In this document: piece after piece, positions 6,001 to 47,001 of the stretch
Layout: every line of letters begins with the position of its first letter
How positions within the stretch are numbered: position 1 is the first letter of the stretch
NCBI GenBank assembly: GCA_038049695.1
Contig: CP142452.1
Coordinates: 92,201,501-92,265,500, forward strand
Length of the DNA stretch: 64,000 bases
Direction: 5' to 3'
Origin: Cinnamomum chago
Taxonomy: Eukaryota; Streptophyta; Magnoliopsida; Laurales; Lauraceae
Translations under genes and position numbers: made by a program
The notes under the pieces: generated by a model
The model's input: the letters and a program-made list of their open reading frames with translations, nothing else
What the model was told of the DNA's origin: nothing
Database searches by the model: none

Positions 6001-9000
6001 CAACAAAAGGGACCAACCAACCAATATGGAGTTGTATCAAGACCATTAGTTTCATGATCTAGACCGTTAATTACAAAGGTAGAATCCAACGTTCAGCGAA
6101 TAGAAAATAATGGACTCTGATGATCAATTATATTTGTTATTAAAATACATATTAAGAATACATTTCATTTCTAATTATATATACATGAAATAGTATAAGG
6201 GTTGATATGAGACATGCCTTTAATAATTGTTGTGGACGATGCCAACTTTAAACACATTATGATGCACCTTAATGAATTAGGATAAGAGGCCCACTTTTAA
6301 ATAGTACATCATGTGACCCACCAATGCTCTTTGGAACTCCAAATCAACAAGGGCCTACCGTCCAAATGTTCAATTGGACACACCTTTAGATATTTGGATA
6401 TGGGCCTATCTTTAGATGTTACATCATGTGAACCCACTAAGGATCCTCGGAATGACACATCAGCAAGGTCCCACTGTCCAATTGGACACACCTTGAAGGA
6501 ATTAGGATATGAGGCCCCCGTTAGATGTTACATCATGTGACCCCACCAAGTTATTTTTTCTTTTTTATTAAAGTTATATATATATATATATATATAATAA
6601 ATATAAACTACTTATTTATCTCTATAAAATCTGTTCTTTTCCAATAATATCTCAGAAAAAATCACATATTTCATTATATTTTTTTTAGCCCGGGCACCAT
6701 ACCGCTCCATTTACTTCTGTAAGCTTACGCTTATGGGGCCCACCCTTGGTCCATCCAAATGGACCAAACACACGACCTCTATAAATTGCACTTGTCCGCT
6801 AGCTTTTGGTCAAATCCGGATTTACTGGACCGTTGGATTGACTATGTACCGATCCAAATGCATTATTGACCATTAAACTTTTGGGGCTAAATGGAGATGG
6901 TAAAAACCACAGTTGGGACTAATTTTTTGTAAAGAGAAAGGTCCCAGGGAGTCCTTGAAATCCCCCCATCACCACCCCCATGTGGGTCGCCAGGTGGGCC
7001 CCACCACAAACTTGAGCTTACCTTAACCTAAGCTTTAGCTTAGGAGAGCTGCCCCTATATAGACACACATTCATACTTGTGTAATGGCCAATGCCTTTAA
7101 ATTCAAGAGGTCGTTATGTTATGTAAGTTTACTTTATTTTATATTTATTTTCATTACATGTTAAAAGATTCTAATATTCAAAAATAATAAATTCCTTTTC
7201 TTTAGACTTATTTTATCTTATTAATATTTTTAAATAAATCTTAAATTTTTAATATAATTTTATTTTTGGCCTGGTCTTAGCACAGGCGTTTGTTGCTAGT
7301 TTACCTGTAAAAGAATCACATGTAAAAAAATGGTGTAAAAGGTCCATTAAGATAGAATCAGATGATGCCCAGATACTTCAAAGTAGGCAATGTACTATGC
7401 CGTATTGTATCCAATACTTCACTCTTTATATGTAAAATCTGGGTCACTACCGTATCCATGGTGTGTCCTACCCATATCTGTGTTGTATTTGGGCATCATA
7501 GATGAGAAATGAGCGCTTTGGGGAGCATTTAGGGGTAGTATCAATGGGGGATGAATTAAGAGAGACTCATTTGAGATGGTTCGGGCACGTCCGATGTTGG
7601 CCAGCAATGGCACCACTGAGGATTTTTTTTTATTTTTTTTTATTTTTTATGTAGATTGATGACTAGCCAAGGAAAATGGATAGTCCAAAGAGGACATGGA
7701 TGGAAACAGTCACAAACACACCCTTACAACAATACTGCGACATCAAGAGCAGAATTCACAGTAAGTAAACTAACTGAACTTGAATTCTATCTCCACAGTA
7801 AAAACAAATAAAAACTCAAACAAGCCTGATTACTGAAGGAGAAATCACAACACTCATGGAACAATCTGAAGCACACAATAGCCGTCCTTTCAAACCAATA
7901 TTATCACCAGATAATTAAGCAGTTTAAGTCATTTACAAAACACAAGGGTAAGTCATAAACTCATAATAAAACTAAAACATCAAGGTGATTCTCTGAAAGT
8001 GTGGTGAGTGTCATTTGTCATTAACTGATATGAACATCAATGTTCAGATCCTGCAGAAATCAGTTATCACATCTGCTGAATTGATCATAACCAGTCAATG
8101 AATTAACACCAAATGCTGAAAGCACGTTTACCTGCAAGCGTTCATAGGCCTTCTGCACAGAAACAAATTTCTCCCTCCCTTCTGGATTTTTGTCTGGATG
8201 ATATTTCATTGCAAGCTTCCTATATTGTCGTTTGAGCTTTTCCTCATCTATGTTCTCAATCTTTCGCTTGGTTATGTTGCCAACCTCTTCTTCAGGCTCA
8301 CTGGGTGGCCTATTATCACCATCATCACCAGATACATCATCAAGGGATATCTCCAATATTTTACAAGCTTCTTCTTCAGAAAGATCCATGGGCCGTCGTG
8401 TTAACTCCTCACGCCACATTGCCAACAATGACTGTAGAAACTCTACATGCTCAACAATTGGCCAATTTGGAAAGCGTATCTCATCACACAAGTTTCGAAG
8501 GTAATATCGATGACACCACATTTCATCTCTTAACTCTGGATATGTCACTGGTGGCATAGGAGCATAATCATAAAGAGAATGGCAATGTTGTGACAGTTTC
8601 TGAGGAAAATCTCCAAGGTGCTGCAAAACCTGAGAGAGCAATAAAAGACAGAACTCACAAGTGTGAAGTGAATATCGATGAGTACTGTGTGGTCTGTTAA
8701 AAAAACGAACAAACAAACAAACTAAACAAGATAACATCTAATAAATCACATCTTTCACAGCCTTGTGTGAATTACCTGACGAATCAAATGTTCAGCTCTC
8801 ATCTTGTGTGTCCAGATGATCTCTGGAGTATCAGAATCAGAAACCATTGCAGCAGCAAATGCAGATGGCCCACTACGCTCCAGCACATACAACAATGATT
8901 CAGGCAGAAGCCCACCCAACACACTACGCTTTGCCAAAGGCAATGATGAAGACATTGCGGCCTCTTCACCACCATGAAATGCTTGGTGGACATGTGTCAA

Positions 9001-21835: not shown

Positions 21836-24800
21836 CGCATGACATTTTGGAGAGATTGAATGTGGAATGAAGAAATATCCAAAACACTGTGCCCATTTAG
21901 GGTCGTCTGTTGTTCTCTTATAAAGGGAATGAATCCCTGATTACAAGCCATTAAGCTTATCTATAGGGCTGAATGCCTTGATTACAAGCCTAAATAACTG
22001 ATTTACAAACTAAGAATGTACAGGTGTAATTGACTAAGTAATACATGAAGACTGGGCCCAAAATGGGCGTGTGCTTGGATTGACACCCCCCTTCAAATTG
22101 ATGCTGGGGAGTCATAAAGCAGCAATTTGGAAATAAGAAATTGATGTCTAGGCCGAGGACGTCCCTTTGTGAAGATATCTGCAAACTGAAACTCTGTAGG
22201 GACATGAGGTAGACTAATGACATCCTGCTTAAATTCATCCCGAATAAAGTGGCAGTCAACTTCAATATGCTTGGTGCGTTCATGGAATACTGGATTTTCA
22301 GTGATTCGGATAGCCCCAATATTGTCGGCATGCAATGGAGTAGGAGAGGTTTGAGCGAACCCGAAGTCCGAAAGAAGTCCCCGTAGCCATAAGACCTAAG
22401 AACAAGCAAAAGACATTGCCCTATATTCAGCTTCTGTGGAAGATCGAGACACCCGTTCTTGTTTCTTGCATTTCCAAGAAATGAGAGAATTGCCAAGGTA
22501 CATGCACCAACCAATAGTAGAACGGCGTGTGTCCTGACAGCCTGCCCAGTCAGCATCTGCATAAGCGGTCAGATGAAGAGGATTATCCTTTGGATAATAT
22601 AAACCACGAGGGACAGTTCTTAGCAGATAGCGGATAATGCGCTTCACAACTGCCAAATGAAGGTGGCGAGGAGCTGTCATAAACTGGCTCACAAGATTAA
22701 CAGTATAGGATATGTCAGGTCTAGTGATGGTGAGATAAACAAGACTTCTCACCAGGCGCCGGTATGGTTGAGGATCAGGAAGAAGATCACCATCATCCTT
22801 ACTCAGCTTGAGATTTACCTCGACAGGTGTATCAACAGGCGAAGAATCATGGAGGTCAGCCAACTCGATAAGATCTGATGTGTATTTGTGTTGATTAACA
22901 AATAGACCTTTGGACGATTGATGCACCTCTAAGCCCAAGAAATAATGCAAGGGGCCCAAATCCTTCATATGGAAGTAAGTCCGGAGAGAATCTTGAAGAG
23001 ATTTGATCATACCATCATCCGTGCCAGTGATAATAATATCGTCAACATACACTAGAAGCACAGTAACCCCAGTAGAGTTGTGGCAAAGAAAGAGAGATGG
23101 ATCATAAGGACTTTGAGTAAAGCCACTTTTGCATAAGCGACCCCTAAAGGTTTCGAACCATGCCCGAGGTGCTTGCTTTAGACCATAAAGCGATTTCCGC
23201 AGCCGACAGACAGACCTCTTGGAGGGAGAGGGGACGCCTTGTGGTATACGCATATAGACCTCTTCTTGCAAATCCCCATGGAGAAATGCATTTTTGACAT
23301 CCATTTGGTAAAATGGCCAAGACTGAGATGCAACAATGGCAAGAAGTAACCTAACAGATGTCATCTTTGCACAGGTGTAAACGTCTCCTCATAGTTAATG
23401 CCATACTCCTGTCTGCTTCCGAGTGCCACAAGTCGAGCTTTGTGTCGATCCAAGGACCCATCAGATTTAAGTTTGATCGAGTAGATCCATTTGCAACCAA
23501 TGGGCTTAACTGCTGAAGGGCACTCCACAATATCCCATGTGTGATCCAGAGCCAATGCATCTAATTCCTCCTTCATGGCCTGGTTCCAGCAATCTTGTTG
23601 GACAGCCTGCAAATAAGAACTTGGGATAGAGATAGAAGATAGGGTGATCATCAAAGAAGTGTGGGTAAAGCCATACCGCTCAGGCGGTCTAGAAGTTCTG
23701 GAGGAGCGACGTAAGGCAGGAGTAGGCGTGGAACCATTTGTCGGTGGAGGATCAGGGGGAGGGCCATCTGCAGTGGGAGGTTTCTCCCGTCGGTGGTATA
23801 CAAAAGCAGGATTAAACCTAGTAACAGAGGTTTGATCCGAAAAACCTGGTAAGAGAGCTGGGGAAGAGGGAGGAGGACAATCCATGTGAGTTTGGAATAA
23901 ATATTGATTTTCAAAGAAAATAACATTTCGAGAAACCCTGATACGACGACCAATGGGATCATAACAAACAAAACCTTTTTGATTAGTGGCATAACCGAAA
24001 AAAGCACACCTGCGAGATTGTGCTGTGAGTTTCGTTCTTTCGGTGGGAGGTAAATGAACAAAGCAAACACAGCCAAAGGTATGTAGGTGATCAAACACAG
24101 GATGATGACCAAATAATTTAAAATGAGGTGTTAAATGAGCAATGGTAGGTGATGGAAGGCGGTTAATGAGATAGACAGCCGTTGTGAGAGCTTCAGTCCA
24201 AAAACGAGGGGGAACAGATGATTCAATCAGAAGAGTTCTAGTTACATCAAGAAGATGTCTGTTTTTCCGTTCTGCGACTCCATTTTGTTGTGGAGTATAC
24301 GGACAGGTACGTTGAGAAATGATTCCTTTATTGGTTAAAAAGGATTGAAAATCCTTGAAAACATACTCCCCCCCTGAGTTTGAGCGCAAAGTTTTAATGC
24401 ATTTAGAAAATTGGGTTTCCACATATTTAACAAAAAATGTAAATGCATTAAGAACATCAGACTTCGAATGTAAGAAATAAATCCAAGTAAATCTGCCGTA
24501 GTCATCAATGAATGTGACAAAATACTTGAAATGACTATGTGAAAGGGTCGGAGCAATGCCCCAAACATCACTGTGAATTAAGTCAAAACATGCAGTGCTC
24601 CGTGTGTGAGAGGTTGGAAAGGGTAAAGTTTTACTCTTACCTAATTTACAAGCATCACAGTCAAAAGAAGCAGAAGCAACAGGTTTATTTATTAATCCAA
24701 ATTGAAATAATGTAGACATAGTAGAAGCATTCGGATGACCAAGTCTATTATGCCACAAATGAGAATGATTCTGAATGAAAAAACAAAATAACTGATGTAA

Positions 24801-27800
24801 AGGATTATTCGCAATAACAGAAGACATTGGTAACGGAAAAAGTCTGCCACGCTTAGGCCCCCTCGCGATCACTTCCCCCGACTCCTGGTCCTGCACAACA
24901 CATCCAGAAGAAGAAAAGGAGACAGTGTAATTATTTTCAACAAGTTGTCCCACAGAAACCAAATTAGTAGCAAGAGGAGGAGAAACCAAAACATTGGTTA
25001 AGGGTAAGGGGCCAGGGGTATCACCAATAGAGGTGATGGGGAGATGATCTCCGTTGGCAGCTTGAACAGTGAGATGACCAGTGTAAGGAACATCATTTTG
25101 TAATGTGGCGGGTGATGAGGCCATATGGTTACTTGCACCAGAATCTAAGTACCAGGTATTGGAAAGAGAGGAAGCAATACCTGCGATGTTCATGGATGCT
25201 AAGGCATTGATGATCATTTGGTTAACCATATCAGGGGTGAGGAGCAGGAGACATAGATTGTGATGAGGAACCAGGCTGTGAGGATGAATCATACGGCAGA
25301 GATCCACTGAAGTCAGATGAAACATATGGTGGAGTAGTCACTGTGTAAGCAGTAGGAGCAAATGACACAGTGGAAGTACCAGGGCCGGACTGCACATAAT
25401 TGCGGGAAGCTGAATTGCGAGCCTTCTTCTGACATTCTTCAATAACATGACCAGTGGCCTTACAATATCTGCAAATTTTTTACTTGCATTGATTTGCATA
25501 GTGACCATATTTTTTGCAGTTATGACACTGAACTTTACTGATGTCCCGAGGAGGTTGTCTGGTTGTGGCAACATAGGCAAATGGAGCCTCCGCAGAGCGG
25601 CGTTGTTCCAGATTAGTTTTAGTAGCTAGACGTTGCTCCTCCCGCAGAAGTTCCTGAAGACAGGCATCCAAGTTGGGAAGAGGAGCCCTGCTCATCAAGT
25701 TCGATCGAACTGTCTCAAACTCCAAACGAAGCTTCATGAGGAGCTGATCCCGATGACTACTTTCCTGTAATGGAAGTAATTCCGGTAGAAGTGCTGCAAA
25801 GACCGTGGCAAACTTAATCTCATCATATTCAGACCACAGTCGGCAGAAGCCATTGTAATACTCCTGAATAGACTGGGTACCTTGAGTGAATTGAGAGATT
25901 TCAAGTTCCAATTGAAACTGGCGAGCAACATTGCCCTGTTGATAAACTTTCTGAAGATAGCCCCACATTTCATGAGCATTTTTGCAGGGTTTTAGGTTGA
26001 GAATAAAATGTGACTCAATAGAGCCTAGCAACCAGGTCTTGATTTTAGCATCCTTTGTCTTCCACGCTAAAATCTTTGTATCATCTTCCTCAGGTTGAGG
26101 TTCAGATCCATCAATGTGTCCCCATAGTTCTTTTCCTTCCAAGTAAATTTGAAATTGAAAAGCCCATGATGTATAATTTGTGCCATCAAATTGAACCAGG
26201 GCTAGCTCATGTTTATCCATGACAAAAGACTAGGAAGAAGCACACAAAGCAGTAGCAGCAACAGATCAATGTACAGAAAACAGTAGATGAAATAGAAGAG
26301 GCCACAATCACCAAGAAGAATGAAAGGAACATCGAACAGTACGCATCACCAGCAATCCAATATGAAGCAGATGGTCACAGAGACCCAAAAAAACCAAAAA
26401 AACAAGCCAGACGACCTCCTGGGTTGTGTTTGGAGAAGCACGTGGGGCCCACAGATAGATTGGAATACAGATCAGGTGTAATATCTGAATGCCATTCTTA
26501 ATTGTCTTCCTTGAGATGAAATCTGGTGTACAGAAGCTAAGGATCCAAAGTTTTGGACGGTATAGATGAAATCTATTTCCAGAAATGTGATAATGACGAG
26601 ATGGAGGAAATGACCCACTTCTGATTGGCAAAAAATTGTGAAAAAATCACAAAAAATTCCTCCTGCAGTGGTCGACCAAGACTGTGTAGGATTCCAAAGG
26701 TGTCTGGATGATCACAAGTGGCCCACTGTTAAACAGCTAGGATCAGCAGGACACGTCCTTGGTCGTTAGTGGAAGAATATCCACGTGGCCCCCAGTGGAT
26801 GATCAGAGTTGGGGGATGAAAAGACAGATTTTCCGCAACTATGGGAAGAAGTCCCACTTGAAACGGATCAGAATCCACAATCTTGGATGGTTGAGATGAA
26901 AACTTCTTGATAAAATTGAAATATCACAAAATAAGCTGGATGGCCTACCTCTAATGAGACAAAATTCCTGGAAAAATAGTGATAAAAAAGAGGAATAACA
27001 GGCGACCTTGGAGACTGATTCTGTCAGTTTATGATATGATGATCTTCAATGGGCCATGAGGGATCTGCAATGATCAGAGATGATTGGAGATGATCCGGCT
27101 GAAGAGGGTGATCACAGATGATCACAGCTTCCAATGCTTGGAAGATGACTTAGCAGAAGATCACAGATGATTGACCTTTGCTCTGATACCATGACATTTT
27201 GGAGAGATTGAATGTGGAATGAAGAAATATGCAAAAACATTGTGCCCATTTAGGGTCGTCCGTTGTTCTCTTATAAAGGGAATGAATCCCTGATTACAAG
27301 CCATTAAGCTTATCTATAGGGCTGAATGCCCTAATTACAAGCCTAAATAACTGATTTACAAACTAAGAATGTACAGGTGTAATTGACTAAGTAATACATG
27401 AAGACTGGGCCCAAAATGGGCCTGGGCTTGGATTGACAACGCACACTACATTACCTCATACAAAACAAACACAAACCTTACTTCACCAACGCACACTACA
27501 TTACCTCATACAAAACAAACACAAACATTACTTCACCAGAAACTTTATCTCACATTTTCCATTGATGTGACATTTACTTTGCCATTAATTTACCAGCAAG
27601 TATCGTGGTCACCTCCTCCAAATGGAGTCTTAATATTCAACACCGATGGAGCAGCTAGAGGTAAGCCTGGTGCTGTGGGAAATGAAAGAGTTTTGCATAA
27701 TACCAAAGGGGAAATGTAATATGATTTTCCAAGTTCACAGGTGTCAAGAATATAGACGAGGTTGAGGTGATTGGTATCTTGGAAGCTATTAGGATTTCCA

Positions 27801-30800: not shown

Positions 30801-33065
30801 ATGATGGCATAATGTGCTTCACATGCATATTTCTCTTATCACCGATCTAAAAACAAGACAACCTAAAAGAGTCTGTTTGAGATAATTCATGGAATGAACC
30901 CTACTAAAGTAGTTGATCTATTCCAATTCCCACTACATGTTGGTATTGGGGTAGTAGATTTGGCCACACGTCTCCAAAACATTCATGCAATGAAAGTATA
31001 TCGGTGGAAGAAGAAGAAGAGGAAGATGCAGTGATGCCAATCAATTGCTAGAATTAACGTTACAAAATTATTATAATAAATCAATGAAATCAACTATCTA
31101 AATATGGCTAATAATAACTCCTTAGTAACTATACTATGCCTGACTGAGACTCAAGTGGATATGTGTGTGTGTGATCAATTACATGTGACTAATGTACATG
31201 TGGGTCATGTGGGCTTATTTTGGTGGACCACACTTCCACACTCCCCCTCAAACTGATGGAGGTTCTGAGAGAGCATCAATTTAATGTATTGTTTTTTGGA
31301 TTATTTCATGACCTGTGAGCCGTGACTGCATCAAATTGTTGCTCCATTTCATTCGCTTACTATAATGATGTTACCTTTCATACTGCCCCATGTGTGACAG
31401 AAAGCATTGCCTCACTGGAGGCTTATAATGATGTTGCCTCAAATTGTTGCTCCATCTCATTTTCTTGCTATAATGATGTTGACTTTCATACTATCCATGG
31501 AGGCCTATTCCTTATAGTATTATTTGGACTATCTGGATTGTTAGGAATGACAAAGTTTCCAAAGTGGTAGCTTCATCTTTTGAAGAAATGTTGGATGTTG
31601 ATCCCATTAAGATAGCAAAATGGATGACGATTAAAAAGGAATGTTAGTTTTTTTTTTTAGATGGTTCATAATTGGGAGCCATGCTTGGTTAGGGGACCAT
31701 GCAAGGAGAAAACTCAGAAGAATTGGCCTCCTCCTCATTTAAGCTCTTTTTTATTCAATGTTGATGGTGCTGGTAGAGGCAAACCAGGCCATGCAGGGAT
31801 AGGTGGTGTGCATTGCAACTTCAAAGGTTAATCATTACTCTCCGTATCCAGGTACATTGGCATCAAATATTCAAATGAAGCTGAGCTCGTCATTAGAGGA
31901 TGTGTATGTCAGTTCCTTCAAAGAGGATTTTGTCTTAGAAAGCAACTCTTCTAATACTATCTCTTAGCTGTCAGGAGATGTTAGCCTCCTTGGAAGTTTC
32001 TTTTCCATCTTAGTAAAATCAAATGCCTTTCTTCTTCACTTTGAGTGGTCTTTTGCCATTTTCTTCAGTTTGTTAACAAAGTAGTGATGGTTCAGCCAAG
32101 CAAGGAACTAGCAGGGTAGATCCTAGTGTTACTTTTTCATAGTTGTTTGTTTCTTTGGGTTCTTTTTGCTGAGGTGTGGTGTATAATTCTCTTAAACCTT
32201 TATGTACTTTTGTGGTTTCTTTTGCCTTTGTAGATTGCTCTTTCTTCCTTCGTTAATAAAATTTTACTCACTGCCACTAAAAAGAAAGTGAAATTATACA
32301 AGAATTTCCAAGAGACACATCCTAGTTATGATATGACAAGGCCAAAGCAAGTAATAATGGGTGCATCACAATAATAATTTGGGAATGATTAATGATCATT
32401 CCTTACTAAACCTAATCATTTTTCAGCAAGTTAATAATTCAAATCATGTACTGTTCATTTACATAATGAATTTATCACACGCAGTTCACCTACCTGATTA
32501 AACTTCAGCAAACTTACACTGCAAATCTTATATACTTAGCATAATACATACAATAATCACAAGTATGTGGCATGTGGTAAAGGGATCAATGACTTACAAA
32601 AGGGACCCACTCTGAAGTCCTTCTGCGAAGGTGAAGTACTGGAAACTCTGCGACAGCCCCAATCTTGCTCCACCTGATCTTATGCAATTCTGTCAAAATG
32701 CTTGCCCTGAACCGCGACGAGAACTTAATACCTTTGAACTTTCCACGACCGTCGGTCCGCACACTGATTGTGAACTCATGTGAATTGTCATCACGTCCCA
32801 GCACTGGCAAAGATCCCTCGTAATCATTCGCTACATCATATGAATTGGTCACCACGAGTGTGGAGGGATCCAACGTGATGATGGCAACATTGGAAATGCA
32901 GAGAATTCGTTTGTAGCGCCCGCGCCATGAGTGCTTCACCACTGTATAGCGGGCGAGATACTCGAGCTCTTCCGGCCCCGCAGCTGCGGGAGGAGCCAAG
33001 GCAGAAGGGGAATCGGCGGAGGGGGGCTGGCGGGGGTCAGTGGCGTGGCGGCTTACAAAATCCAT
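3020..33065 (-). CDS. GRV2: GRV2/KAM2 (RME-8 homologue), J-domain endosomal protein; 3' part outside window
   Basis: Large peripheral endosome protein that works with HSP70 in vacuolar and endosomal sorting (known for GRV2/RME-8). Coding exons on the minus strand, all phase-consistent: 33065-32598, 29398-29165, 28402-28315, 20579-20371, 18925-18824, 18721-18659, 18484-16235, 12546-12184, 11867-11727, 9168-8776, 8629-8132, 4344-4121, 3992-3648, 3314-3020. They sum to 5,673 nt, or 1,891 codons. Residues 27-367 form the N-terminal RME-8 region. A GYF-like segment lies at about 1193-1245, and a J domain with HPD at 1581-1583 begins about 1562. Armadillo-like helical sequence fills the rest. The family is about 2,550 residues long, so some 650 C-terminal residues should lie left of base 1. 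I chose the start at MDFVSR because plant homologues begin there; an in-frame ATG at 33236 would add 57 residues. Exon 7 alone encodes 750 residues. No internal stop was seen in any exon. Confidence 0.93.
6240..6545. repeat. Diverged tandem repeats, about 115 bp
   Basis: Three imperfect copies share the order CACCTT, TTAGGATA(T)GAGGCCC, then TTTAGATGTTACATCATGTGA followed by CCCAC. Copies end near 6310, 6430 and 6540. The origin is unknown. Confidence 0.6.
7490..7730 (+). mobile_element. RTE-type LINE fragment (C-terminal end of RT ORF)
   Basis: Plus-strand translation gives [10 protein letters not shown], then a segment ending LRWFGHVR, then KRTWMETV. These are the conserved C-terminal motifs of plant RTE-type LINE polyproteins. 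A T-rich insertion at 7622-7650 splits the segment, and it has stops and frame changes. Related ends occur near 40770, 47515, 48560 and 61200. Confidence 0.6.
10192..10282 (+). mobile_element. tRNA-derived SINE-like copy
   Basis: An A box, TGGCTCAGTGG, lies at 10200-10210 and a B box, GGTTCAAATC, at 10250-10259. This is tRNA-like spacing. The CATGTTACCAAT tail is followed by A-rich sequence and is shared with the copy near 19643. No cloverleaf or acceptor stem could be drawn, so this is not a functional tRNA gene. Confidence 0.55.
10320..10823 (+). mobile_element. TRIM-like retrotransposon with two short LTRs and 5-bp TSD
   Basis: Two direct repeats, 10320-10558 (239 bp) and 10605-10823 (219 bp), flank only 46 bases. 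They share TGGCTCCCCT, CTGGGTATGCA, ATGCTAGTCCTGA and GGCCTTTTAAAACCGTGC. The first begins TGTC and ends TTACA. Two bases later comes TGGTATCAAAGC (10561-10572), which resembles an initiator-tRNA-Met primer-binding site. A purine tract (GATGGGGGAG) precedes the second repeat. The flanks are an exact 5-bp duplication, AGAAG, at 10315-10319 and 10824-10828. There is no coding capacity, so this fits a terminal-repeat retrotransposon in miniature. The family was not assigned. Confidence 0.85.
10892..10929 (+). repeat. Homopolymeric G run of 38 bases
   Basis: An uninterrupted G tract lies 68 bp downstream of the TRIM-like element, inside GRV2 intron 9. It reads as C on the transcribed strand of GRV2. 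Its length may be inaccurate because such runs assemble poorly. Confidence 0.9.
13935..14288. mobile_element. hAT-type MITE, copy A, with 8-bp TSD
   Basis: The termini are inverted: CAAGGTTGGAAAACTC at the left and the complement of CATGGTTGGAAAACTC at the right. The exact 8-bp flank GTAACAAT occurs at 13927-13934 and 14289-14296. An 8-bp target duplication is typical of hAT elements. The interior is AT-rich, noncoding, and contains GAGTCA-type subterminal repeats. A second family member lies at 47728-48253. Confidence 0.85.
15567..15600 (+). repeat. (GA)n microsatellite
   Basis: This is a pure GA tract of about 34 bases inside GRV2 intron 7. Confidence 0.9.
19643..19702 (+). mobile_element. 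tRNA-derived SINE-like remnant
   Basis: It shares TGTCACGAACACGAG and TTTGAGCCATGTTACCAATTG, followed by poly(A), with the SINE-like copies near 1357 and 10192. Only the 3' half of the tRNA-like region is well preserved. Confidence 0.4.
19878..20274 (+). mobile_element. Solo LTR with 5-bp TSD
   Basis: This 397-bp block starts TGATGCAGCCC and ends GGGCTGTGTCA. The exact flank ACAAC lies at 19873-19877 and 20275-20279. A TATA-like CTATATATAG near 20090 fits an LTR promoter and sets the plus orientation. No second LTR or internal domain adjoins it, so it is read as the product of LTR-LTR recombination. Confidence 0.75.
21788..21832 (+). repeat. (TC)n microsatellite
   Basis: The TC tract of about 45 bases lies inside the LINE fragment, a few bases left of the copia insertion site. 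Confidence 0.9.
22093..25325 (-). pseudogene. copia pol (protease-integrase-RT-RNase H), frameshifted
   Basis: Segment 25325-23361 holds the protease active site (YLDSGAS) and the pre-integrase HLWHNRLGH with CxxC. The integrase core ([23 protein letters not shown]) and the beginning of the RT follow. Segment 23364-22396 holds the RT catalytic YVDDIII and the RNase H start (STEAEYRAM). Segment 22335-22093 holds the RNase H end ([12 protein letters not shown]). Breaks: a single-base frame change at about 23361-23375 and another between about 22335 and 22400. All domains are otherwise complete, consistent with recent inactivation. Confidence 0.9.
25480..26220 (-). pseudogene. copia gag, interrupted by a stop
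   Basis: A 246-codon ORF begins [16 protein letters not shown]. It covers the UBN2-type gag domain (about residues 10-200) and ends in a CCHC zinc knuckle ([14 protein letters not shown]). A stop codon follows immediately. In the same frame past the stop a second knuckle-like stretch ([14 protein letters not shown]) can be read. Gag and protease are therefore separated by at least one stop and a frame change, and the product is likely nonfunctional or truncated. Confidence 0.85.
27439..27538 (+). repeat. 50-bp tandem duplication beginning at the copia TSD
   Basis: Two 50-bp copies, 27439-27488 and 27489-27538, differ at one base. Each begins ACGCACACTACATTACC. The first five bases are the right target-site duplication of the copia element. 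Confidence 0.95.
29391..29632 (-). repeat. 121-bp tandem duplication covering the GRV2 exon 2 splice acceptor
   Basis: 29391-29511 and 29512-29632 are near-identical copies with a 121-bp period. The copy nearest exon 2 contains its real acceptor (exon starts 29398). The upstream copy repeats the same acceptor and the first eight exon bases, creating a decoy site. Confidence 0.85.
30046..30990 (+). pseudogene. Ty3/gypsy pol remnant (RNase H end to integrase)
   Basis: Plus-strand translations give [13 protein letters not shown], then the integrase zinc-binding segment ([14 protein letters not shown], with [10 protein letters not shown] and [10 protein letters not shown]). The integrase core start ([15 protein letters not shown]) and the later TDGQTKVVN motif follow. 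These are the expected order for a Ty3/gypsy integrase. Stops and frameshifts interrupt it, and no LTRs were recognised nearby. Confidence 0.8.
31032..31240 (-). mobile_element. Probable copia LTR (3' end of a minus-strand element)
   Basis: On the minus strand a pyrimidine/purine boundary (complement of CTCCCCCTCAAA, 31241-31252) resembles a polypurine tract. It is followed by a block starting TGTGG and ending ATCA. The same PPT-plus-LTR layout is seen in the complete copia element at 22086. No second LTR or TSD was found. Confidence 0.4.
31500..32290 (+). mobile_element. L1-type LINE 3' remnant
   Basis: Degenerate translation shows [11 protein letters not shown], then an RNase H-like start ([16 protein letters not shown], followed by [10 protein letters not shown]). 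These are the same motifs as in the LINE at 27439-28160. It lies on the plus strand within GRV2 intron 1, opposite to the gene, and has several stops. Confidence 0.65.
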
Positions 33066-33647
33066 GGGAGGGAGGAACTCAAGGTAGTGTGTTCGACGTG
33101 CATTCGGGCGGAGGAGGAACCAGAATCCCAAGCCCCCGTTCGCAGCCGCCGCCGGGCTTTGACGAGACTGATTCGCCCCCAGGGCTTCCGATGGTTCGGA
33201 TTCTTTCCCACAGATGAACCTCTCGGATTGAAACAAAAACCCTCAGCTTCAAATTCGATGCGAAGAAGAAAAGAGAAGAATCTTTACAAACTCCACCAAC
33301 TTCTCATTGAATTCCTAATGAAATTGAAACAAAATCTGATCGGATTGCATCAGAAATCTTTCAAAGCCTCGACAAGGATTAGGGCTTTTTGGAATCTCGC
33401 TCTCTTTCAAGATCCAACAGCAGGAAATGCTCCGACGAAACCATCGAAATTATCAGATGCCATCGAAGAATCCGAATTTCAAAATGAAGGAAATGAACTC
33501 TGCAATCAAAATCAAAACGAAACAAAAAAACCACTAGCGATCTTTTTTTATATTCTCGTTCGTCTTTTTTTTTTTTTTTCTGTAACTGATAGCTTCTTCA
33601 GATCAGAAAGTGAAGGAGAGATGAAATATAGGAAAGAGTGTCTGATG

Positions 33648-36784: not shown

Positions 36785-39700
36785 ATGGTGATCGAGCTTC
36801 AAAATCCGCCTCAAAGTCAAAACGATCCCTTAGCAAACACATTCCTATTGCCTCGAACCCTAGAAGGGTTTTCGGCCGACAATGGCATGGGATTGGAATT
36901 CGCCCATGATTTTCTCAGCTCTAAGGTACTCCGATTTCCTCCTCTCTTAGATCAGTAGAAATATGTGATAAAAATCCATGCTCTCTCTCTCTCTCACTCT
37001 CTTCGCTTTTCCTCCGATTTCAAGGATTCTAGATCTTGCAAAGATGACGATGATGATGATATTGTTGTTGTTACTTTACTACTGTTATCATTTCTTTCTA
37101 TCTGCACAAACTAGGGCTGGAATTGATTTCTAGGTTTTCTGTTGTTAACGTTTAATTGCTATATACTTTGTTTATCTATTGCAGTATTCATCAGTTGATT
37201 TGCATTAAAATGGAAGGTTTTGCTGTATTACCACATCCCAACATGTAAAACAGATGAATGCTATTGTAATATGTAATATTTGCATTCTGTGATGCTATAA
37301 CTATTCCTTTTGGTCTATATGAAAAGAAAAAAAAGGTCATACATTATAATGACACAACAAATGAGAAGTTCCATGTCTGTTGTGAGAATGCAGGCCCTGA
37401 ATGATCCAACTAAGCTTATTGAGCAGGCAACTGCACTTTTAAATGGCATTTCAGAAGGGACAGAGTTTGACTTTGCACAGCATTTGTCAGTTAAAACTGT
37501 CAATAAAGAGGGCATTGCAAATGGTGCAGTGCATCCAGAAAGGAGAAGGCCGGCATTGGGTCGTAAGCGCGCTCGATTTTCTTATAAGCCCAGTCAAAGG
37601 TAAAATGTTGTGACTTCTATATCGTTTCAAAGGAAGTGGTTTTTTTTTTTTTGTTGCTGTTGAAAATGGCACAAAAAAAAAGGGTTTTCAAGATAGCTCT
37701 GCGATATTAACTGTTTTTTTCCCTGGACAGTGAACCTGCTTCACATGTGGATCTGAGTGTGGACATTGATAATCTGCAAGATCCAGATGAATTTTTTGCA
37801 GCTCATGAAAGACGTGAAAGTAATTTTAAGCTGTCTTTTTTTGGGGTTCTTCTTTTCTTGGATCAAAGTGTCTTCTCTCTGATTCTCATTCTTGCTGTTG
37901 GACTACAGATGCTGAAAAAGAATTAAAGAAATCAAGGGGAGACACTTCAGATGATCCAATTCAACATCAGCTTGGCACGTCTGCACGTTGCCGTCGTCCA
38001 GGGATTCGTGGGTATGGTATACATTGTGTATTAAATAAATATCAATTAGTCATTTCTTTCTTTCTTCTTCATGTAATATTTGAAAATAAAATGCAACTAC
38101 TATTCTAAGTATATGAGGTGTAGGAAATAGTCACCATTTTTCACTTCACGGACTTGTTGTCTCCCTATACACTGTTATGATAATAGAATGAGTTTCTTCG
38201 TTTAGAATTGTAAAAACCCAACTTGATCACTTGTCTTTCAGAAAAAAATCACTTATCTTTCAAAAAAACAAAAAATTCAACTTGATAGATAAGGTCTAAT
38301 GGCTATTACAACTTACAAGAATTGAGGGATATGAGAACTGAGAATAGATCAAGATTGCGAGCGTGTGACCTTCGAGACCATATACAGTGAATACTATACT
38401 GGATTGGTCACAGCATAAGAGTTGGGTCAATGATCCATTTTATCTGTTAAATGAATTTTTTATCTGTGCAATGTGGATGGCTCTTTTTTTTTCTCTGCAA
38501 GCAACCATCTTCGAATGACCAAACCAAGGGACAGGAAAACAGGGCTTACCTTTTGATTTTATGCTATGCTATTATCTTATCTGTAATTGATGCTGCTGAT
38601 TTTGTTGCTGTTGTACGTGTGCCTGAATGGTTCACTAATTCTTGAAAATTTGAGTGTCCGATGCTTGTCTCAGTTCTGTTTTGGTATCTGCGACACATGC
38701 ATGACTTTTAAGAATTGACAATTCTTTGTACCTAGTATTTATTGGAATCATTTGTTTTCTCTCCGTTATCAGGAAGACTGTTAGTTATAAGCATCTCTAT
38801 CCAACAATTTCTGGTAAAGAGAACCTTGTATCATCACAAGAAGAAAAATCCATCATGAAAGGTCCTAGATCATCTATTGGAACACTCAATTTGTCATCCT
38901 GTAACATTTCATACCCAGAAGCTGGCGAGCCTGGTGAATCACAGAAAAGGCAAACCTCTGAGGAAGGACATTTGACTGATACTCAAGGAAAAGGTTGACC
39001 ATTTTTGCAAATATACTACTATCTTTCCTTCACCGGCATCTGCAGTTTGTTGCTCATTTTCTGACCCTTAAATTAAATTTACTGGATTCAGGTTCAATAG
39101 CCGAGACAGAGAACAAAGTCACTGAACTTTTGGATGAACTGATGTCAACCTGCAAAGGTCTAGATGAAGGTGAAGTGGTATCTATTTTACAAGAATGCTT
39201 GCAAGTTAAGCCAATCACCCTCGACAAAGTATCCCTCCCTGACTTAGGCAGTGTCCAAAGAACAGAACTTAAGGCATCACAGGAAACATTTTTGAGGCCG
39301 AGAAAACCTTTGTCAGTTTTACAGGGAGCAACAAAGTCAAGAATCAACTTGAAAACACCAGCAGAAGCCAGGCAAAACTCTGAGAGTTTCAGATGTTTAT
39401 CATCTACTTCACCAACCCCACCAAGGAGCCCATTTGCATCGATGTCCATACTGCGAAGGCGCATTTTACAGGAAGATTCAATGAAAGACCTGTTCTCTAT
39501 GTCTCTTGACCCTGATGTTTCATCTACTGAACAACATCGTTCCATTCAAGGCATGGGGAAACAAGCTGGTTGCCCTCCCGCTAGAACCAGTCAGTTTGAT
39601 TCAAAGAGTTTGGATGTCGTAGTTGATTCTGTTCCTCCAAAGATCAATGAAAAGCGTTCCAGTTTGGATGCCAAGTTGCAGTCATCAGTTCTTGCAGTGG

Positions 39701-42700
39701 GTAACACTGTAGTCAGTGATGTTAATTTAGAAAAATTGCCAACAGTAGATTTATCCTGTCCATTTGACAGGCCCACCAATGAAAATGCAAATAGGTCAGA
39801 CAATGATGTTAATATTATGTCAATTGAAGAGGGCAACATTGCAGGATGTTATGTCAGTTCAAGAAAATTGCCGACAGTAGATTCAGCCTGTCCACCTGAC
39901 AGGACCACAGATAAAAGCACAAATAGGTTTGATAATGGTGTTAATATTACATCAATTACAGAGGGTCACATTGTAGGCCGTAATGTCAATGCTGGAAAAC
40001 AGCCACTGGTAGATTCAACAAGTCCGTCCTGCAGGCCTACAGATGAGACCGTAAATAGGTTCGACAATGACATGAATATTACATCAAATGAACTGGTCAA
40101 CAATTCACAAGACAAGGCAAGTGTTTTTGATGTGTCAATGCAGTTTATAATATCACATCATTTGTTGCTATTTGGTACTTAAAAATTCATTTGTGATGTT
40201 TTAATTCTAGTCCCAGGTCAAAGATATGCTGCTCAAAGTATCAGTAAATCCTGAGACAGAGGAATGTCCTGAAGGTCTGATGTCAGAGACAGTGCATTGC
40301 AATGAGAACCAGCTTGGTATGTTACCTGTGTTTATTCAATTGCACTATTTTAGAAAGCTTAAGAAAGTAATCAGTCATTAAAATAGTGTAGGCATGTAAT
40401 TGTTTGATCAATTTTAAGTTCTTACATGCAATATTCTTTGTAACATTACTTTTACAGTGGCATACCTGAAGTTTTTCATGTTTATGAATTTGTTCATGGT
40501 ATAGAAATGTTCCTCATAAAATATTCACAATTTTATTAATCTGTTTCAATAAGGGCAGGATGCCTAAGGGTAGCATTTTTTCCTCCAACATAGCTCAGAA
40601 TTTTGACTCATCCATGTCATTGATAGGACTAAGAACATTAAGAATGGACCCACTTCCACACCCTTTCTATCTTCTCTTTTTCATATGGGGTAAAAATCTG
40701 GTAAACCCCTACTGACTTTATGGTTAAGATGTGGAGCTACTGAAAACATGGCTGCAAATAGGATTGACTGTAAAAGTTAAATTCCAAAGTTGACCCCAAA
40801 TAGATGGGACGAGGCTTCAGTGATGAAGCTGACATATATGCATATATATGCCCATCGTTTGACATAAACAACAACCCCGCCCCCCCAACACAAAAAAAAA
40901 GAAAGAAAAAAAAGAAGCAAAGAGCTTTACATGCATTGGTGAATGAGCTTTATATGCGTTGGTGAATTAGCATTCACTTGCACTAACCACACTTCCTTGT
41001 GAATTATCATTCGCCTAAATTTGATGCGCATCCCAGTTAAATAGGCCTTTGGACATTTTAAACTCCTACCCCTCCATGATTTTTATGCTTCTAGGTCGGC
41101 CCCACATATTTAATGTGCCTAGAAATGACTTATATGCGTGTGGATAGGATCCCTTGTGCACTGTAGGCATCTTAGGTCTGAACTTGGCTGTGGGATCCAC
41201 ATGGATGCATGACAGTCATGGAGGGCTGGAAAGATCTGATTGACGCCTTGGGTTGTACTGAAAGTCAGCTATCATATATTCCTGATCTTATGATAAATGA
41301 CCGGTGGGGGTGGGGTGGGTGGGGGGGGGCTTGGGTTTGGGAAGTACTGAGTGTGACACCCTGGATTGTACTAAAAGTCAACCCTATCATATCATCCTAA
41401 CCCCCTGATGTTTGGCCCTCAAATTTGAATGATTTAATCACAGGCATTGATGTTTTGGGTTTTTCAGTTCAGTGGTAAGTGACAGTGTGATGAGTGTCAA
41501 GTTGTTTGAGTGCCAATTCACAGGGGGGGGGGGGGGGTGGTACTGAGTGTGAGGAGGTTGATGAATCATGTGTGGGCCCAGTGGAAAGACAACGGAAGCT
41601 TCACTCCTAATTTAGGTAGTGTAGAGAAAATGGAAACTTTGCATTTAAGTTGGGTGCAAGTTATACGCAATGGATCACGTACCTCTCTCCCTCTCATATA
41701 TCAGTATGATCAGATAATCGTAACCATGAATTTAACTGTCCCCAGTTCAATGTTTTTGTAACTATTTTGTAATAAATAATAAATTTTCAGATTGTACTAG
41801 TATCTTGTCCACTTTTGATCCCTGTAAAATCTTCCAATCCCACTAGTGTTTGCAAGTTTTGTGGATAGTTCATAGCTGAGTGTTCTTCACAAATACACAT
41901 ATAGATTCTTTATGTTGAGGCATTCTGCTTCCTGTGTTTGCTATAGCTATAGTGGTTTGGTTTTCTGCTTATTCCTTGAATTTTGACATCTTAATTTTTT
42001 TTCTCTTTATTTAACCAAAATTTAACTCCAACTACAGGTGCCCACCTTCCAATGGATGAACAGCAGTTTGAAGACCCTGGCATCTCAAAAGAAAAGCAAA
42101 CTAAGGTTGACTGAGTTTTCCACGTAGATTCTTGTCTTAAATTTTTTTTTTTTCCAAAATGTGATTTGCATTTTTCTCAGCCTCGTTCATATATTTGCAT
42201 GAGGCGTGGTTGATATTTGTTAATGAAATTGATTTGCATTTATTATATAACTATACATGCAAATATCTTAGACGAACCAATAGTTTTTTGTGGTTATTTT
42301 TGCTTCATGTATTGTTTGTGATGAGCACTTTCTACTTCAAATCTCATTTTAGTTAATGGGTATTCATTGAAATTGAGATTTGGGGTGGCATAAATGGTAT
42401 TCGTGAGCTACCTTTTGCCATGAAAACATCTAAATATAGCCACTGGCAATATTTCTCTCACATGTTGTATCAGAAATGAATCTCCTCTCTGATAATGGGT
42501 AACTGAGGGTGTACTGTTTTAGTAGTGAGGATACTGTAAAATCTATGAATTAATAGAGTAGTGAGTGATTACGAGAAATATCACATTTTCAGATGGCTCG
42601 TACAAAGCAGACGGCTCATAAATCCACTGGAGGAAAGGCTCCTCGGAAGCTGCTTGCAACTAAGGTTTCTTCTTCTTGACAAAGACTTTATATAATCTTT

Positions 42701-45700
42701 CAAGTTGTTCCCCTAAACCATTTATCATAATTTTTAGTTTTTGCAATTTATTTTTTCTATGTTTGACAATAACTTGGAGAGGGCAATGGGTTTTAAGGAA
42801 TGACAGAATGTGTAAGGTATTTGAATTGATGTGGGTTTCTATATGAAGTTAGCCTCCTAAATCCAAGTAGTGTATTTGTTTTTTCTTTCTTCACTTTACA
42901 AAATTATTGCACTTATGTACCCACACATACTAAGTAATGTCCCAGAGCAACTGAGCAATAGCCATGAACATCAGTTTGAATTTTTGTTCTTATATTTTAT
43001 GTGTTGGATCTTTTACTGCTGGCATTAGACCATCTGTCAGGGCCTTTGCTTCTGTTTCTCTTTTTCACTGCTTATTTAGAGCATTTGTTAGGGCCTTTTT
43101 TTTTTCAATTCCTTTTATTTTGAGCATTTATCTGGACCTTTACTTCTTTTTCTTTTCATTATGGATAAGATGATTTTTTTTTCCTTTGATTGGTTATAAA
43201 TTGGAGTGGTGGTGAACAGGGGATATGGAGGATGAATCTGTAAGGTTATATGCATTGACATGGGTTTTTACCATCCCCTAAAAGTTCATATAGTCTGAAT
43301 TTGATTCTTACGATCTGTTGGTGTTGGTGTTGGAGCGTCTGTCAGGGTCTTTGATTCTATTTCTCTTCATCCATCACTGCTTCATCTAAAGAAGAATGCT
43401 GTCACACAGAAAACTTTGAATCCTTATTTAGACCCATTCCTCCTCAAAATTCTCGTCTTCACTAGATCAGATAAAAGATATTTCACTTCGTTGGTCCTTA
43501 ATTTATCTTTGTCTATTGTGCATGGACTGGGATTTCCCATTTCTGGCATCAAGATTTTGCTTCAGAATACCTGCCTCTTGCAATCAATTCATCTTTGATC
43601 CGTGCCCTTCAGTCTATAAAAAGTCTACTACCTACTGCCTTTGGATTTCTTAATTATTGCCTAATTAAAACAGCTGGGCTTGATTACGGCATTCTTCAGC
43701 TTGTCATCCAATCCTAGCGTTTAGAGATCCCAATGTTTCTTTCTTTTCAAGCCCCCACATAAGTGAAGAAGGAAGCACAATTGGAATCTCCCTACTTTAT
43801 AGGCTCTTCATACGTATACGCATCATGTGCATAAGTAATCTATTTGTTTCTTTAAAAGGGCAAACTTCAGATCTTCTCCAAAGAGATTAAAAAGTGATTT
43901 CAATACTGTTGCTAGCATTTTTTAGGTGCAGTTGATCCATTGTTTGTTCAAAATCCAACACATATAACATATACTTTCTATGTGACTTATTGAAATTATC
44001 AAATCAATGTTTTTTTATTAATTTATTTTAATAAAATTCATCCACAAGAATTTGCAATGCTGCTAATAAAATTCGTCATTGTGACTTTAGGGTGCTTACT
44101 GTAATAACGCTTAGTTGTCATGCAACTGCAATCGCCCCATACCTTGTTCGTCTATTATTTATCTTTTGTTTCTTCATTCATATACTCTGGCTTTGTTAAG
44201 TGTAGCCACACACTCATACTCACCCAGGCATTTGTGACTGATATATCCAAGCTGCAATTCATTCTAAGCTACTGGCTAAATATCCTATCTGAAAATCAGG
44301 CTTGCCACCCATCAAGTTCCCTTATATGTTTGTCTAAATTTTTCCATTGTCCCATTGTCATTGTCATCATTATAGCCCCGTCCCATCAGTATGGGGGGTG
44401 CTTAAAGAGTTTTACAAGTGGATTATAGAACAAGCTATGTTGTGGATATCCTTACTTTATAGGGAAGGTGCATGGAAGTAAGCCTCTCTGTGTGTGTGAT
44501 GGAAACAAGAAAAAGGAAGTGTCAAGGAGCGACCCTAAAAGCACATCATGATATGGGGTTTGTTAGCTAGATCATGATATGGAACCTTACTTCACAATTC
44601 TCTATTTTTTATCTCATTGCTACCATCGTGCACGTCCGTACACAGAAGTCAGAACCAATTTTGTTTTGTATGCCTTAGTTTCTTTTTAAAAAATGAATTA
44701 CCTTATACAACAAATTTGACGCAGTCCCACATAACAGTAACTATAAAAGTAATAGATATCACATACATATGGATACCGATAAAATTAATAAAATATAAAT
44801 ATAGAAATAATATAGTAAAAAATATGTTTAAGATATTGGGATTTTTATTTTAAATCAACCCACACATATAATTTCTTTGCTCATGTTCCATACGCTCTAT
44901 GTTGGGAATCACGCTTAACAAATCCTGGCCATTTGCACTAACCTGTCCCACATGAGTTGACACTCTTCCTACTTTGAGACCGACCTGACCATTAGCCACT
45001 ATTGGATTTAATCACAAAAATAAATGCACTCAGAAAACCATCATACTTTGAGGTGCCTAAATTAATTTTTAGGATTATTCAATAAGCATTATATTTGTCC
45101 TATCCCTTATTCCCAATGTCTCCTTCAGATGCAACCTGCCTCTGTGAGTGAATTGGATGTATCCAAATTGCGCTCACGTTGGAGTGAAAACACTTATTAA
45201 AAAGTGCACGTGGGTTGAGTCACTCACAATAATTGTAAATAAAATATCATTTTGAAGTTAATGAATTCTATATTTTTTTATTAGTGCCCGGGCTTAGCAT
45301 AGTTGTGTTTTGCTAGTGTAGAATGATGGATAATATGGATATTTGTTATTTTTATTGATTGGTGGGCCTGCCTATCTCAAGCTACAATTTCCTTTTTCTA
45401 TGACTGGCGCAGTTGAGAGTTTCTAAATATTTTGGAATTTTCTTGCAGAAAAAGTGAAACTTTTCGGGCTCAAGTATCTGACATGGAGATTTATCGTTGT
45501 TTTTCTTGCTGTGTTTTCCTTTTTTGGCTTTCCGTTTGGTCTTTGATTTGAACTTTTATGGCTAATTGCCCTTGGTGACACTTAAAAAAAAAAACCGTGA
45601 CACTTTTTAAAAGAAAAAAAATCTTAGTTGGCTATAACAGTATTTGTAATTTTCTTATCATAATATTTTTTTAGCACAAATCTCAAATGAACTGCTCTCC

Positions 45701-46347
45701 TGTAGAAATGTTTGGCTTGCTTGTATTGAAGCAATTAGTTTGCTGTCAAACAGGAACATCAGGCACCTTGTACAACATCATTGAATGAACAAGCAAAAAG
45801 AGAGGCACCTCAACAGAAACGAAGCAAAAAAGATGCACCTCCACGTAAGCGGGGCAAAAGAGAATCCAGTTTGATGAGGAAAAGTCTTGCAGGTTGCAAT
45901 TCATTGCCATCATTGCTAGATTTGAGCTTTTTACATGAGTTTTGATTTCTGAACGATGATATTTTTTACAAACACCTGTCTTGAAAATATTTGTGATCTT
46001 ATTTTAGTATGGTTTAATGTTGTGTATCTTCAGGAGCTGGTACTACTGTGGAATCTGGGGTAAGGAGAAGCACTAGAATCAAGTCAAGGCCTTTAGAGTA
46101 TTGGAGAGGCGAGCGGTTTTTATATGCACGCATACATAACAGTGAGTATTTCTTCATACACGCATGCATGTGTCTTTACTTTTATGTACACGTGCATGTC
46201 TATGTATGCGTATTTGGGCATGTTAGTATTTATTCATTTGTGTGAGCATGTGTGTGCATTCAGGTATTTCTTTGTGTGAGTATTTGTTCGTGTGTATATG
46301 AGAGAGAGAGAGACAGGTATTTCTTTGTGTGAGTATTTGTTCGTGTG

Positions 46348-46423
<76 letters not shown>

Positions 46424-47001
46424 TGTGTGTGCATCCATTCGAGTGTGTTAGCATTTTATCTCAACCAGGGTTCTCATATGTTTGGTGAATGATTACTGTT
46501 ATGTATTGAACATCCTCAAGGCTTTTATCCAATTCAATTATTTGCTTGAACTAAATAGATGGTGGAATTGCTGGGCTGCTTTATTAACATGAACCCTCCT
46601 ACAGTTGAAATGAAAGGAAGATGGCATCTTTTAAATGGTGACATTTGTCTTTTGAGAAACTGATCTTGAAATTTCTTTCAATAGATTATAGATCTCTTAC
46701 TTTGCCATTTCAGCAGTGGTTCCTTTTCATCTCTTTCTAGGAAGTGAAGGCTGTACTTGTTGAACAAAAGAAGATTTATAATTGAATTTTTGTTTTCTGT
46801 TAGTTTTGATTCTGTTATGGGAATGCAGAACAGGAAATTTGATTTGACTTGGTTTCTTTTCTCCTGGCAGGTTTGCCAACGGTAATTGGAATGAAGTATT
46901 CATCTCCAGTTGGTAAAGGGGGCAAAGAACTCGAGCTCAAGGTGAAGTCTTATGTCTCAGACGAATTTGCAGAGCTAGTTGAGATTGCAGCTCTACATTG
47001 A
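36785..47001 (+). CDS. CENPC: CENP-C, centromere protein C (inner kinetochore)
   Basis: DNA/nucleosome-binding kinetochore protein that anchors CENH3 chromatin to the outer kinetochore. Exons, all phase-consistent: 36785-36925, 37394-37599, 37731-37819, 37909-38011, 38773-38993, 39092-40116, 40211-40316, 42038-42105, 45754-45892, 46034-46141, 46871-47001. They sum to 778 residues, against about 700 in Arabidopsis. Plant hallmarks: an N-terminal DPLA...PRTL start, the [13 protein letters not shown] segment, [11 protein letters not shown], and the CENP-C motif [14 protein letters not shown] (about residues 710-723) near the C-terminus. Residues 464-595 form three 44-residue repeats. Intron 6 uses a GC donor (AAG/GCAAGT). 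An out-of-frame ATG at 36778 overlaps the start. A 72-nt histone-H3-like block in intron 8 could add 24 residues after residue 653. The first intron and N-terminal borders are the least certain. Confidence 0.93.
39721..40116 (+). repeat. Three in-frame 132-bp repeats in CENP-C exon 6
   Basis: Units 39721-39852, 39853-39984 and 39985-40116 each encode 44 residues with the pattern KLPTVDxxCP, then DRPT, then NRFDNDVNI and an EG(N/H)I segment. The third unit is the most diverged in its last ten residues. The array ends exactly at the exon border. The repeats have no known function that I recognise. Confidence 0.9.
40317..42037 (+). other. CENP-C intron 7 with G-rich tracts
   Basis: This 1.7-kb intron holds an RTE LINE end (about 40770-40835) and A-rich runs near 40895. 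It also has two strongly G-rich stretches on the coding strand, about 41300-41345 and 41521-41540. Each is followed by GTACTGAGTGTGA, so they are diverged copies of one repeat. A TTGTACTRAAAGTCA block also occurs twice, near 41253 and 41366. Confidence 0.65.
40770..40835 (+). mobile_element. RTE-type LINE 3' end remnant
   Basis: The segment GTTGACCCCAAATAGATGGGACGAGGC followed by a GATGAAG-type end resembles the last codons and 3' end of plant RTE LINEs (compare 47660 and 61545). It is very short. Confidence 0.35.
42106..45753 (+). other. CENP-C intron 8 containing the H3-tail block
   Basis: If the H3-like block at 42593-42664 is an exon, this region splits into introns of 487 and 3,089 bp. 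Diverged tandem repeats with GTCAGGG(C/T)CTTTG and TTTCTCTT...CACTGCTT occur near 43035 and 43345. A Helitron-like 3' end candidate ends at 45316. No other H3 exon was seen in it. Confidence 0.7.
42593..42664 (+). other. Histone H3 N-terminal tail block, exon-like, within CENP-C
   Basis: Seventy-two bases encode Met plus H3 residues 1-23, starting [10 protein letters not shown] and ending [10 protein letters not shown]. The changes from canonical H3 are R8H and Q19L. K4, K9, S10, K14, K18 and K23 are kept. It follows TTTTCAG and is followed by GTTTCT, so both borders look like splice sites. Plant H3.3 genes, as I remember, have an intron around this codon. It begins and ends in phase 0, and CENP-C exon 8 ends and exon 9 starts in phase 0, so inclusion keeps CENP-C in frame. 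Read through the donor, the frame stops after four more codons (ORF 42593-42679). Alternatives: an exonised capture, an alternative cassette, or an unspliced pseudogene fragment. Confidence 0.85.
46142..46870 (+). other. CENP-C intron 10 with microsatellite
   Basis: A 53-bp unit (AGGTATTTC...GAGAC) is duplicated at 46262-46314 and from 46315. The second copy runs into a long (GA)n tract, 46352-46421. GTGT-rich text precedes it. Otherwise ordinary intron sequence. Confidence 0.85.

Follow-up and report, generated by a model that had tools for sequence, protein, structure and literature searches.

We found a genuine histone H3 exon lying in frame within the CENP-C gene, in intron 8, and confirmed it by translation, by searches with full H3 and by a rebuilt gene model. 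The window (the whole stretch of DNA that was analysed, 64 kb) carries this exon as a 72-nt block, which is the product of an old exon capture and, as far as sequence comparison can tell, probably serves Lauraceae as an in-frame exon of CENP-C. To the explanation as a whole, that is capture from an H3.3 gene, most likely splicing into CENP-C, and a basic contact as the likeliest role, we assign a probability of about two in three. CENP-C binds the centromeric H3 variant and forms a base of the kinetochore, and a centromere protein in the avocado family may carry an H3 tail of its own. The coordinates are collected in Table 1.

An earlier note on this DNA had read the 24 codons as Met plus H3 residues 1-23 with only R8H and Q19L changed, and our translation of 42593-42664 (forward strand) gives exactly this. 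A search with full H3 against the window (tblastn) returned the block at E 2e-8 and the next best place at E 2, with no convincing match to a further H3 exon in CENP-C intron 8; the H3 match is confined to residues 1-23 and a complete histone fold is absent. The block is bordered by ACATTTTCAG (5') and GTTTCTTC (3'), and its length of 72 nt, AG and GT borders, phase 0 at both ends and phase-0 host intron are those of a symmetric cassette. The rebuilt CENP-C model agrees with the claim that it stands in frame between the phase-0 exons 8 and 9 (ending at 42105 and starting at 45754) after residue 653, and the frame stays open whether the block is included (802 aa) or left out (778 aa). The encoded stretch has a net charge of +7 and lies on the N-terminal side of the CENPC motif, at the 56 residues proposed before, the distance to the basic segment being 21 residues (to KRSKK) and not the proposed 30 or so. 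The block donor GTTTCT and the CENP-C exon-8 donor (GTTGAC) are far from the donor consensus GTAAGT, which counts against use of the exon, though the same holds for the donor of the H3.3 gene on contig C9 discussed below (GTTTGA).

Table 1. Features of CENP-C and of the captured H3.3 piece (positions in the window).
Feature	Position	Strand	Support
CENP-C coding part, 11 exons without the block	36785..47001	+	open frame of 778 aa; avocado homologue full length, 45/802 residues different with the block
CENP-C exons 1-11	36785-36925, 37394-37599, 37731-37819, 37909-38011, 38773-38993, 39092-40116, 40211-40316, 42038-42105, 45754-45892, 46034-46141, 46871-47001	+	
CENP-C exon 8	42038..42105	+	phase 0 end after residue 653; junction the same in the avocado protein
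Copied 3' part of H3.3 5'UTR intron with acceptor	42284..42592	+	C9:60062054-60062417, K 0.286, 295 aligned sites, 8 indel runs
Copy of H3.3 first coding exon, candidate CENP-C cassette exon	42593..42664	+	64/72 nt identical to C9 exon; 23/24 residues identical to avocado CENP-C
Beginning of H3.3 coding intron 1, copied with its donor	42665..42700	+	30/36 nt shared with C9 (K 0.19), similarity fading further on (K 0.56, 56 nt)
CENP-C exon 9	45754..45892	+	phase 0 start; codes for basic stretch N-terminal to CENPC motif
CENP-C exon 10	46034..46141	+	CENPC motif; conserved across aligned plant CENP-Cs

The host gene was rebuilt as an 11-exon model with borders picked by eye. Alignment to plant CENP-Cs showed a CENPC motif, a conserved C-terminal domain and the plant exon layout, and all 10 introns end in AG, 9 of them starting with GT and intron 6 with GC.

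The genome that carries the window (1.06 Gb, 14 contigs) yielded 31 H3 matches, among them four intron-containing H3.3-type genes (on C9, C8, C5 and C3), in all of which the first coding exon runs from Met to K23 and comprises 24 codons. The block is identical to these exons at 64 (C9), 63 (C8), 61 (C5) and 60 (C3) of 72 nt, and to the ten tabulated intronless H3 copies at 52-57 of 72 nt. The exon alone barely separates C9 from C8, C5 and C3, and C9 was picked as the parent because of the flanks: positions 42284-42700 align to C9:60062054-60062525 (E 2e-54, 67% with gaps), so that the 5'UTR intron and coding intron 1 of this gene (C9:60062418) match about 310 nt on the 5' side of the block and 36 nt on its 3' side, respectively, whereas the alignments to C8, C5 and C3 end within about 10 nt of the exon. 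Comparison with the H3 genes of the same genome, one of the checks suggested in the earlier note, thus placed C9 first and extended the homology into both flanks. The C9 gene looks like a living gene, since its four exons (24, 26, 30 and 56 codons) read through with AG and GT borders; its 5'UTR intron was placed by eye at 60061758-60062417 and a TATA-like box, also by eye, at 60061659. Introns of Arabidopsis replacement H3 genes reportedly enhance expression.

Chance resemblance is ruled out by the E value in the window and by the homology to a single H3.3 gene of this genome, which extends past the exon into the non-coding flanks at either end. A retrocopy of an H3.3 mRNA is likewise ruled out, as intron sequence was copied along, and so is an intronless H3 gene as source, given its lower identity in the ten tabulated copies and the confinement of the listed alignments to the exon. 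Judged by its sequence, the block is therefore a captured piece of an H3.3 gene and not an exon born within CENP-C. The acceptor- and donor-like borders noted before are indeed present, and because the flanks were copied with the exon they are H3.3's own and did not arise in CENP-C. With plant H3.3 genes the block shares the 24-codon first coding exon, the borders and, for C9, the flanks; it differs in consisting of only that exon and pieces of intron, with no histone fold. The CENP-C block would stand as a clear example of a histone-gene exon captured by another gene. A separate set of five H3 copies (on C2, C4, C3, C8 and C10) covers only residues 1-115 at 94-96% identity, with an internal stop in four of the five; the set has the look of an H3 family that has decayed.

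Searched with 42240-42760, the genome yielded nine matches: besides the window, these were two stretches of the C9 gene, matches at exon level on C8, C3, C12 and C1, and two places on C4. As very common words are skipped in such a search, nine matches are no proof of low copy number. The result lends no support to a dispersed repeat: the flanks matched only the C9 gene and the two tandem places on C4. This tandem pair (C4:85664989-85665146 and C4:85670107-85670264) shares about 220 nt at 66% with 42233-42453 of CENP-C intron 8, extending further 5' than the C9 match, and more weakly resembles the 5'UTR intron of the C9 gene; no match to H3 or CENP-C was found in it. The pair could be what is left of an element by which the H3.3 piece was transported.

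Related CENP-Cs were searched with residues 560-802 of the model that includes the exon. The top match among 244 proteins was the CENP-C of Persea americana 'Hass' (MRB53_011979, 802 aa), which holds the H3 block at the same junction, shares Q19L with the window species (the species whose genome carries the window) and has R8, so that ARKS around K9, which reads AHKS in the window species, is intact there. The two proteins differ at 1 of 24 residues in the block, 1 of 23 in exon 8, 1 of 46 in exon 9 and 45 of 802 overall. The earlier note had named loss or frame disruption in a sister species as evidence against the exon; the opposite was found, and the comparison favours the exon because an annotated avocado protein contains the block in frame. 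R8H, put forward as a feature of the H3-like tail, does break ARKS in the window species and is not a shared design, as avocado has R8.

Beyond avocado the block was not found in the CENP-Cs that were compared. Among the best 120 of the 244 matches, H3-tail words occur only in MRB53_011979, and the block is absent from the seven other CENP-Cs that were aligned (Magnolia, Nelumbo, two Tasmannia, Nymphaea, Macadamia and Tetracentron). The best match of a second search (87 proteins among 1494 candidates) was a 159-aa protein of a relative, encoded on a 939-nt contig, in which exactly 24 residues are missing at the position of the block; this relative either retains the ancestral state or skips the exon. 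The proposed check of related CENP-Cs for the exon was thus positive for avocado and negative for this protein and the seven aligned ones. Three Lauraceae-like fragments run past exon 6 into intron 6, and therefore come from genomic DNA; they stop short of the block junction. None of the 84 proteins new in the second search combines H3-tail words with a CENPC-like motif (54 have the words alone), and a third search, in which 7 of 235 candidates reached E 1e-8 or better, brought nothing new. The avocado sequence stands for 18 sequences clustered at 90% identity, among which there may be variants lacking the exon. In a hmmscan against Pfam-A it matched no family at E 10, and the protein database lists PF28563 for it; the Pfam copies behind these two results seem to differ.

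The avocado protein also bears on the reading that the H3.3 piece is an inert relic, which stays in the intron unspliced and owes its place in the avocado model solely to the exon's good score with gene predictors. The MRB53 tags are those of 'Hass' assembly GCA_029852735.1, as far as described in PMC11347836, and the 'Hass' genes were, according to the account in PMC9531333, predicted with BRAKER 2.1.6 and RNA-Seq from many libraries. The RNA-Seq-aided annotation supports splicing of the block, short of proof, and argues against a relic, although the CENP-C model could be an ab initio call. The intact frame, start codon and both splice borders in the window species and the intact exon at the protein level in avocado argue in the same direction, while the loss of R8 in one of the two known species is what a relic could show.

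How far the block has been constrained was estimated from an alignment read by eye, with the other three H3.3 genes as outgroups. On the block lineage we count two replacements, Q19L (present in avocado as well) and R8H (absent there), along with two or three silent changes; on the C9 lineage three or four changes are silent and none is a replacement. K is 0.146 (38 nt) and 0.189 (36 nt) in the nearest flanks and 0.286 (295 sites, 8 indel runs) in the upstream copied intron. A neutral simulation that assigned half of K to the block side led us to expect roughly 4.0 to 6.3 amino-acid changes, and the probability of at most two changes in a block free of stops and indels, its splice dinucleotides intact, was 0.0067 at the far-flank rate, 0.017 at the middle rate and 0.053 at the near-flank rate, or 0.139 at the near-flank rate with indels ignored; a binomial comparison gave 0.028 or 0.066. 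Preservation of an inert piece is thus unremarkable at the near-flank rate, whereas the far-flank and binomial values speak against it. These probabilities are suggestive only, because equal branches were assumed and a decayed block would have gone unnoticed; selection may have kept the block. Taken with the avocado model, we consider an inert relic unlikely, if far from negligible; even as a relic, the block would represent an exon capture that can be tested, in a gene with a record of gaining exons.

In the explanation that we prefer, exon capture followed by use in CENP-C, three adjoining parts of an H3.3 gene were copied in sense orientation into CENP-C intron 8: the end of the 5'UTR intron, the first coding exon of 72 nt and the beginning of the next intron. 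The capture took place in an ancestor common to the window species and avocado, as place, sequence and the shared Q19L show at the protein level. The piece is a ready-made symmetric cassette, because the exon starts at ATG, comprises 24 codons, came with an acceptor and a donor and entered an intron of phase 0. Splicing of the block into some or all CENP-C mRNAs of both trees is then most likely, the avocado gene model being in line with it, and the insert would place 24 additional residues, basic and presumably disordered, N-terminal to the basic stretch and the CENPC motif.

For such an insert the likeliest role would, by analogy, be an extra sequence-independent contact with DNA or the nucleosome, and this is the plainest role because this part of CENP-C binds DNA and has gained exons in other plants. 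In Arabidopsis the CENPC motif alone is described as not targeting centromeres, in contrast to fragments with the adjacent DNA-binding regions (passages of PMC11879092), and exons 9-12 of maize CENP-C are stated to bind DNA and RNA (PMC2816676, in part). Repeated exon gain is described for the middle region of grass CENP-C and positive selection for exons 8-9 of Arabidopsis Cenpc (Talbert et al. 2004, sections of PMC549713). The grass case resembles ours in that new exons arose in the variable part N-terminal to the CENPC motif; as described there, grasses duplicate their own exons, whereas here the exon came from another gene.

A more far-reaching reading is that of a working histone mimic, in which K9/S10 or the K4-K23 lysines of the included exon would be modified and recognised as they are on H3, so that H3 readers would be recruited to the kinetochore or decoyed there. 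The avocado tail, complete for residues 1-23 save Q19L, fits this. Against it, the tail is internal: H3T3ph readers and many K4 readers need a free N-terminus, which such a tail does not have, and readers needing a free A1 would not bind it; R8H in the window species is a further point against. Mimicry of H3 marks is accordingly possible in avocado, with its intact ARKS, and less so in the window species, and use as a modified H3 tail would be secondary to the basic contact. A working mimic seems improbable to us on these grounds. The strongest form, a Lauraceae CENP-C with a constitutive captured H3.3 tail that would be written and read like H3 at the kinetochore where ARKS is intact (avocado), and that would thus bear a nucleosome-independent histone mark, we regard as a similarly long shot. 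A natural fusion of CENP-C and an H3 tail would offer a ready test of the role of this tail at kinetochores apart from the nucleosome, with R8 in avocado and H8 in the window species as a natural point mutant.

Use of the block ATG as an alternative start, giving a 149-residue isoform with a free H3 N-terminus, the CENPC motif and the C-terminal domain, is very improbable: the start codon is kept in both species and the frame is open through to the CENP-C stop, but no H3.3 promoter came along, since the layout of the parent gene shows that the copied piece begins (C9:60062054) 395 nt after the TATA-like box and inside the likely 5'UTR intron (from 60061758), and none of the 7 proteins at E 1e-8 or better among the 235 candidates of a protein search with a size range that included 149 aa was such a Lauraceae CENP-C.

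Several known systems share parts of this arrangement. The N-terminus of Sgo1, also a centromere protein, has been proposed to present an H3-tail-like stretch; as far as set out in PMC12420818 this is a free N-terminus with a resemblance to H3, whereas the CENP-C block is a homologous H3 tail in an internal position. The H3K9-type mimics of EHMT1/2, such as WIZ and LIG1, resemble avocado CENP-C in having an internal ARKS-like motif; in the portion of PMC10611923 that describes them this is a short motif, whereas the block comprises the whole tail 1-23 and has lost R8 in the window species. The histone-like domain of PAF15 (PF15715) is likewise an H3-tail-like stretch in a non-histone protein, and the block matches it weakly (E 0.075), at 14.2 bits against a curated cut-off of 23.4 bits, a match that reflects the H3 tail itself. 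In the open-licence papers that were searched, no H3-tail exon in plant CENP-C and nothing on CENP-C in Lauraceae was found, and 'histone H3 mimic' was absent among the literature matches listed. Exon capture, histone mimicry and CENP-C exon gain are each known; their combination is new to us.

Some further observations concern the surroundings of the block. Intron 6 of CENP-C (40117-40210) is apparently of the rare GC-AG type (AAG/GCAAGT ... CTAG), and fragments from other Lauraceae-like contigs also read into its sequence. Elsewhere in the window we found an RME-8/GRV2-like gene, with its first exon at 32586-33242 (RME-8_N) and a later part with a DnaJ domain at 8060-8737. A Copia-type retrotransposon with RVT_2 and gag domains (22396-26229, reverse strand) lies between these two parts, and therefore probably inside a long intron of that gene.
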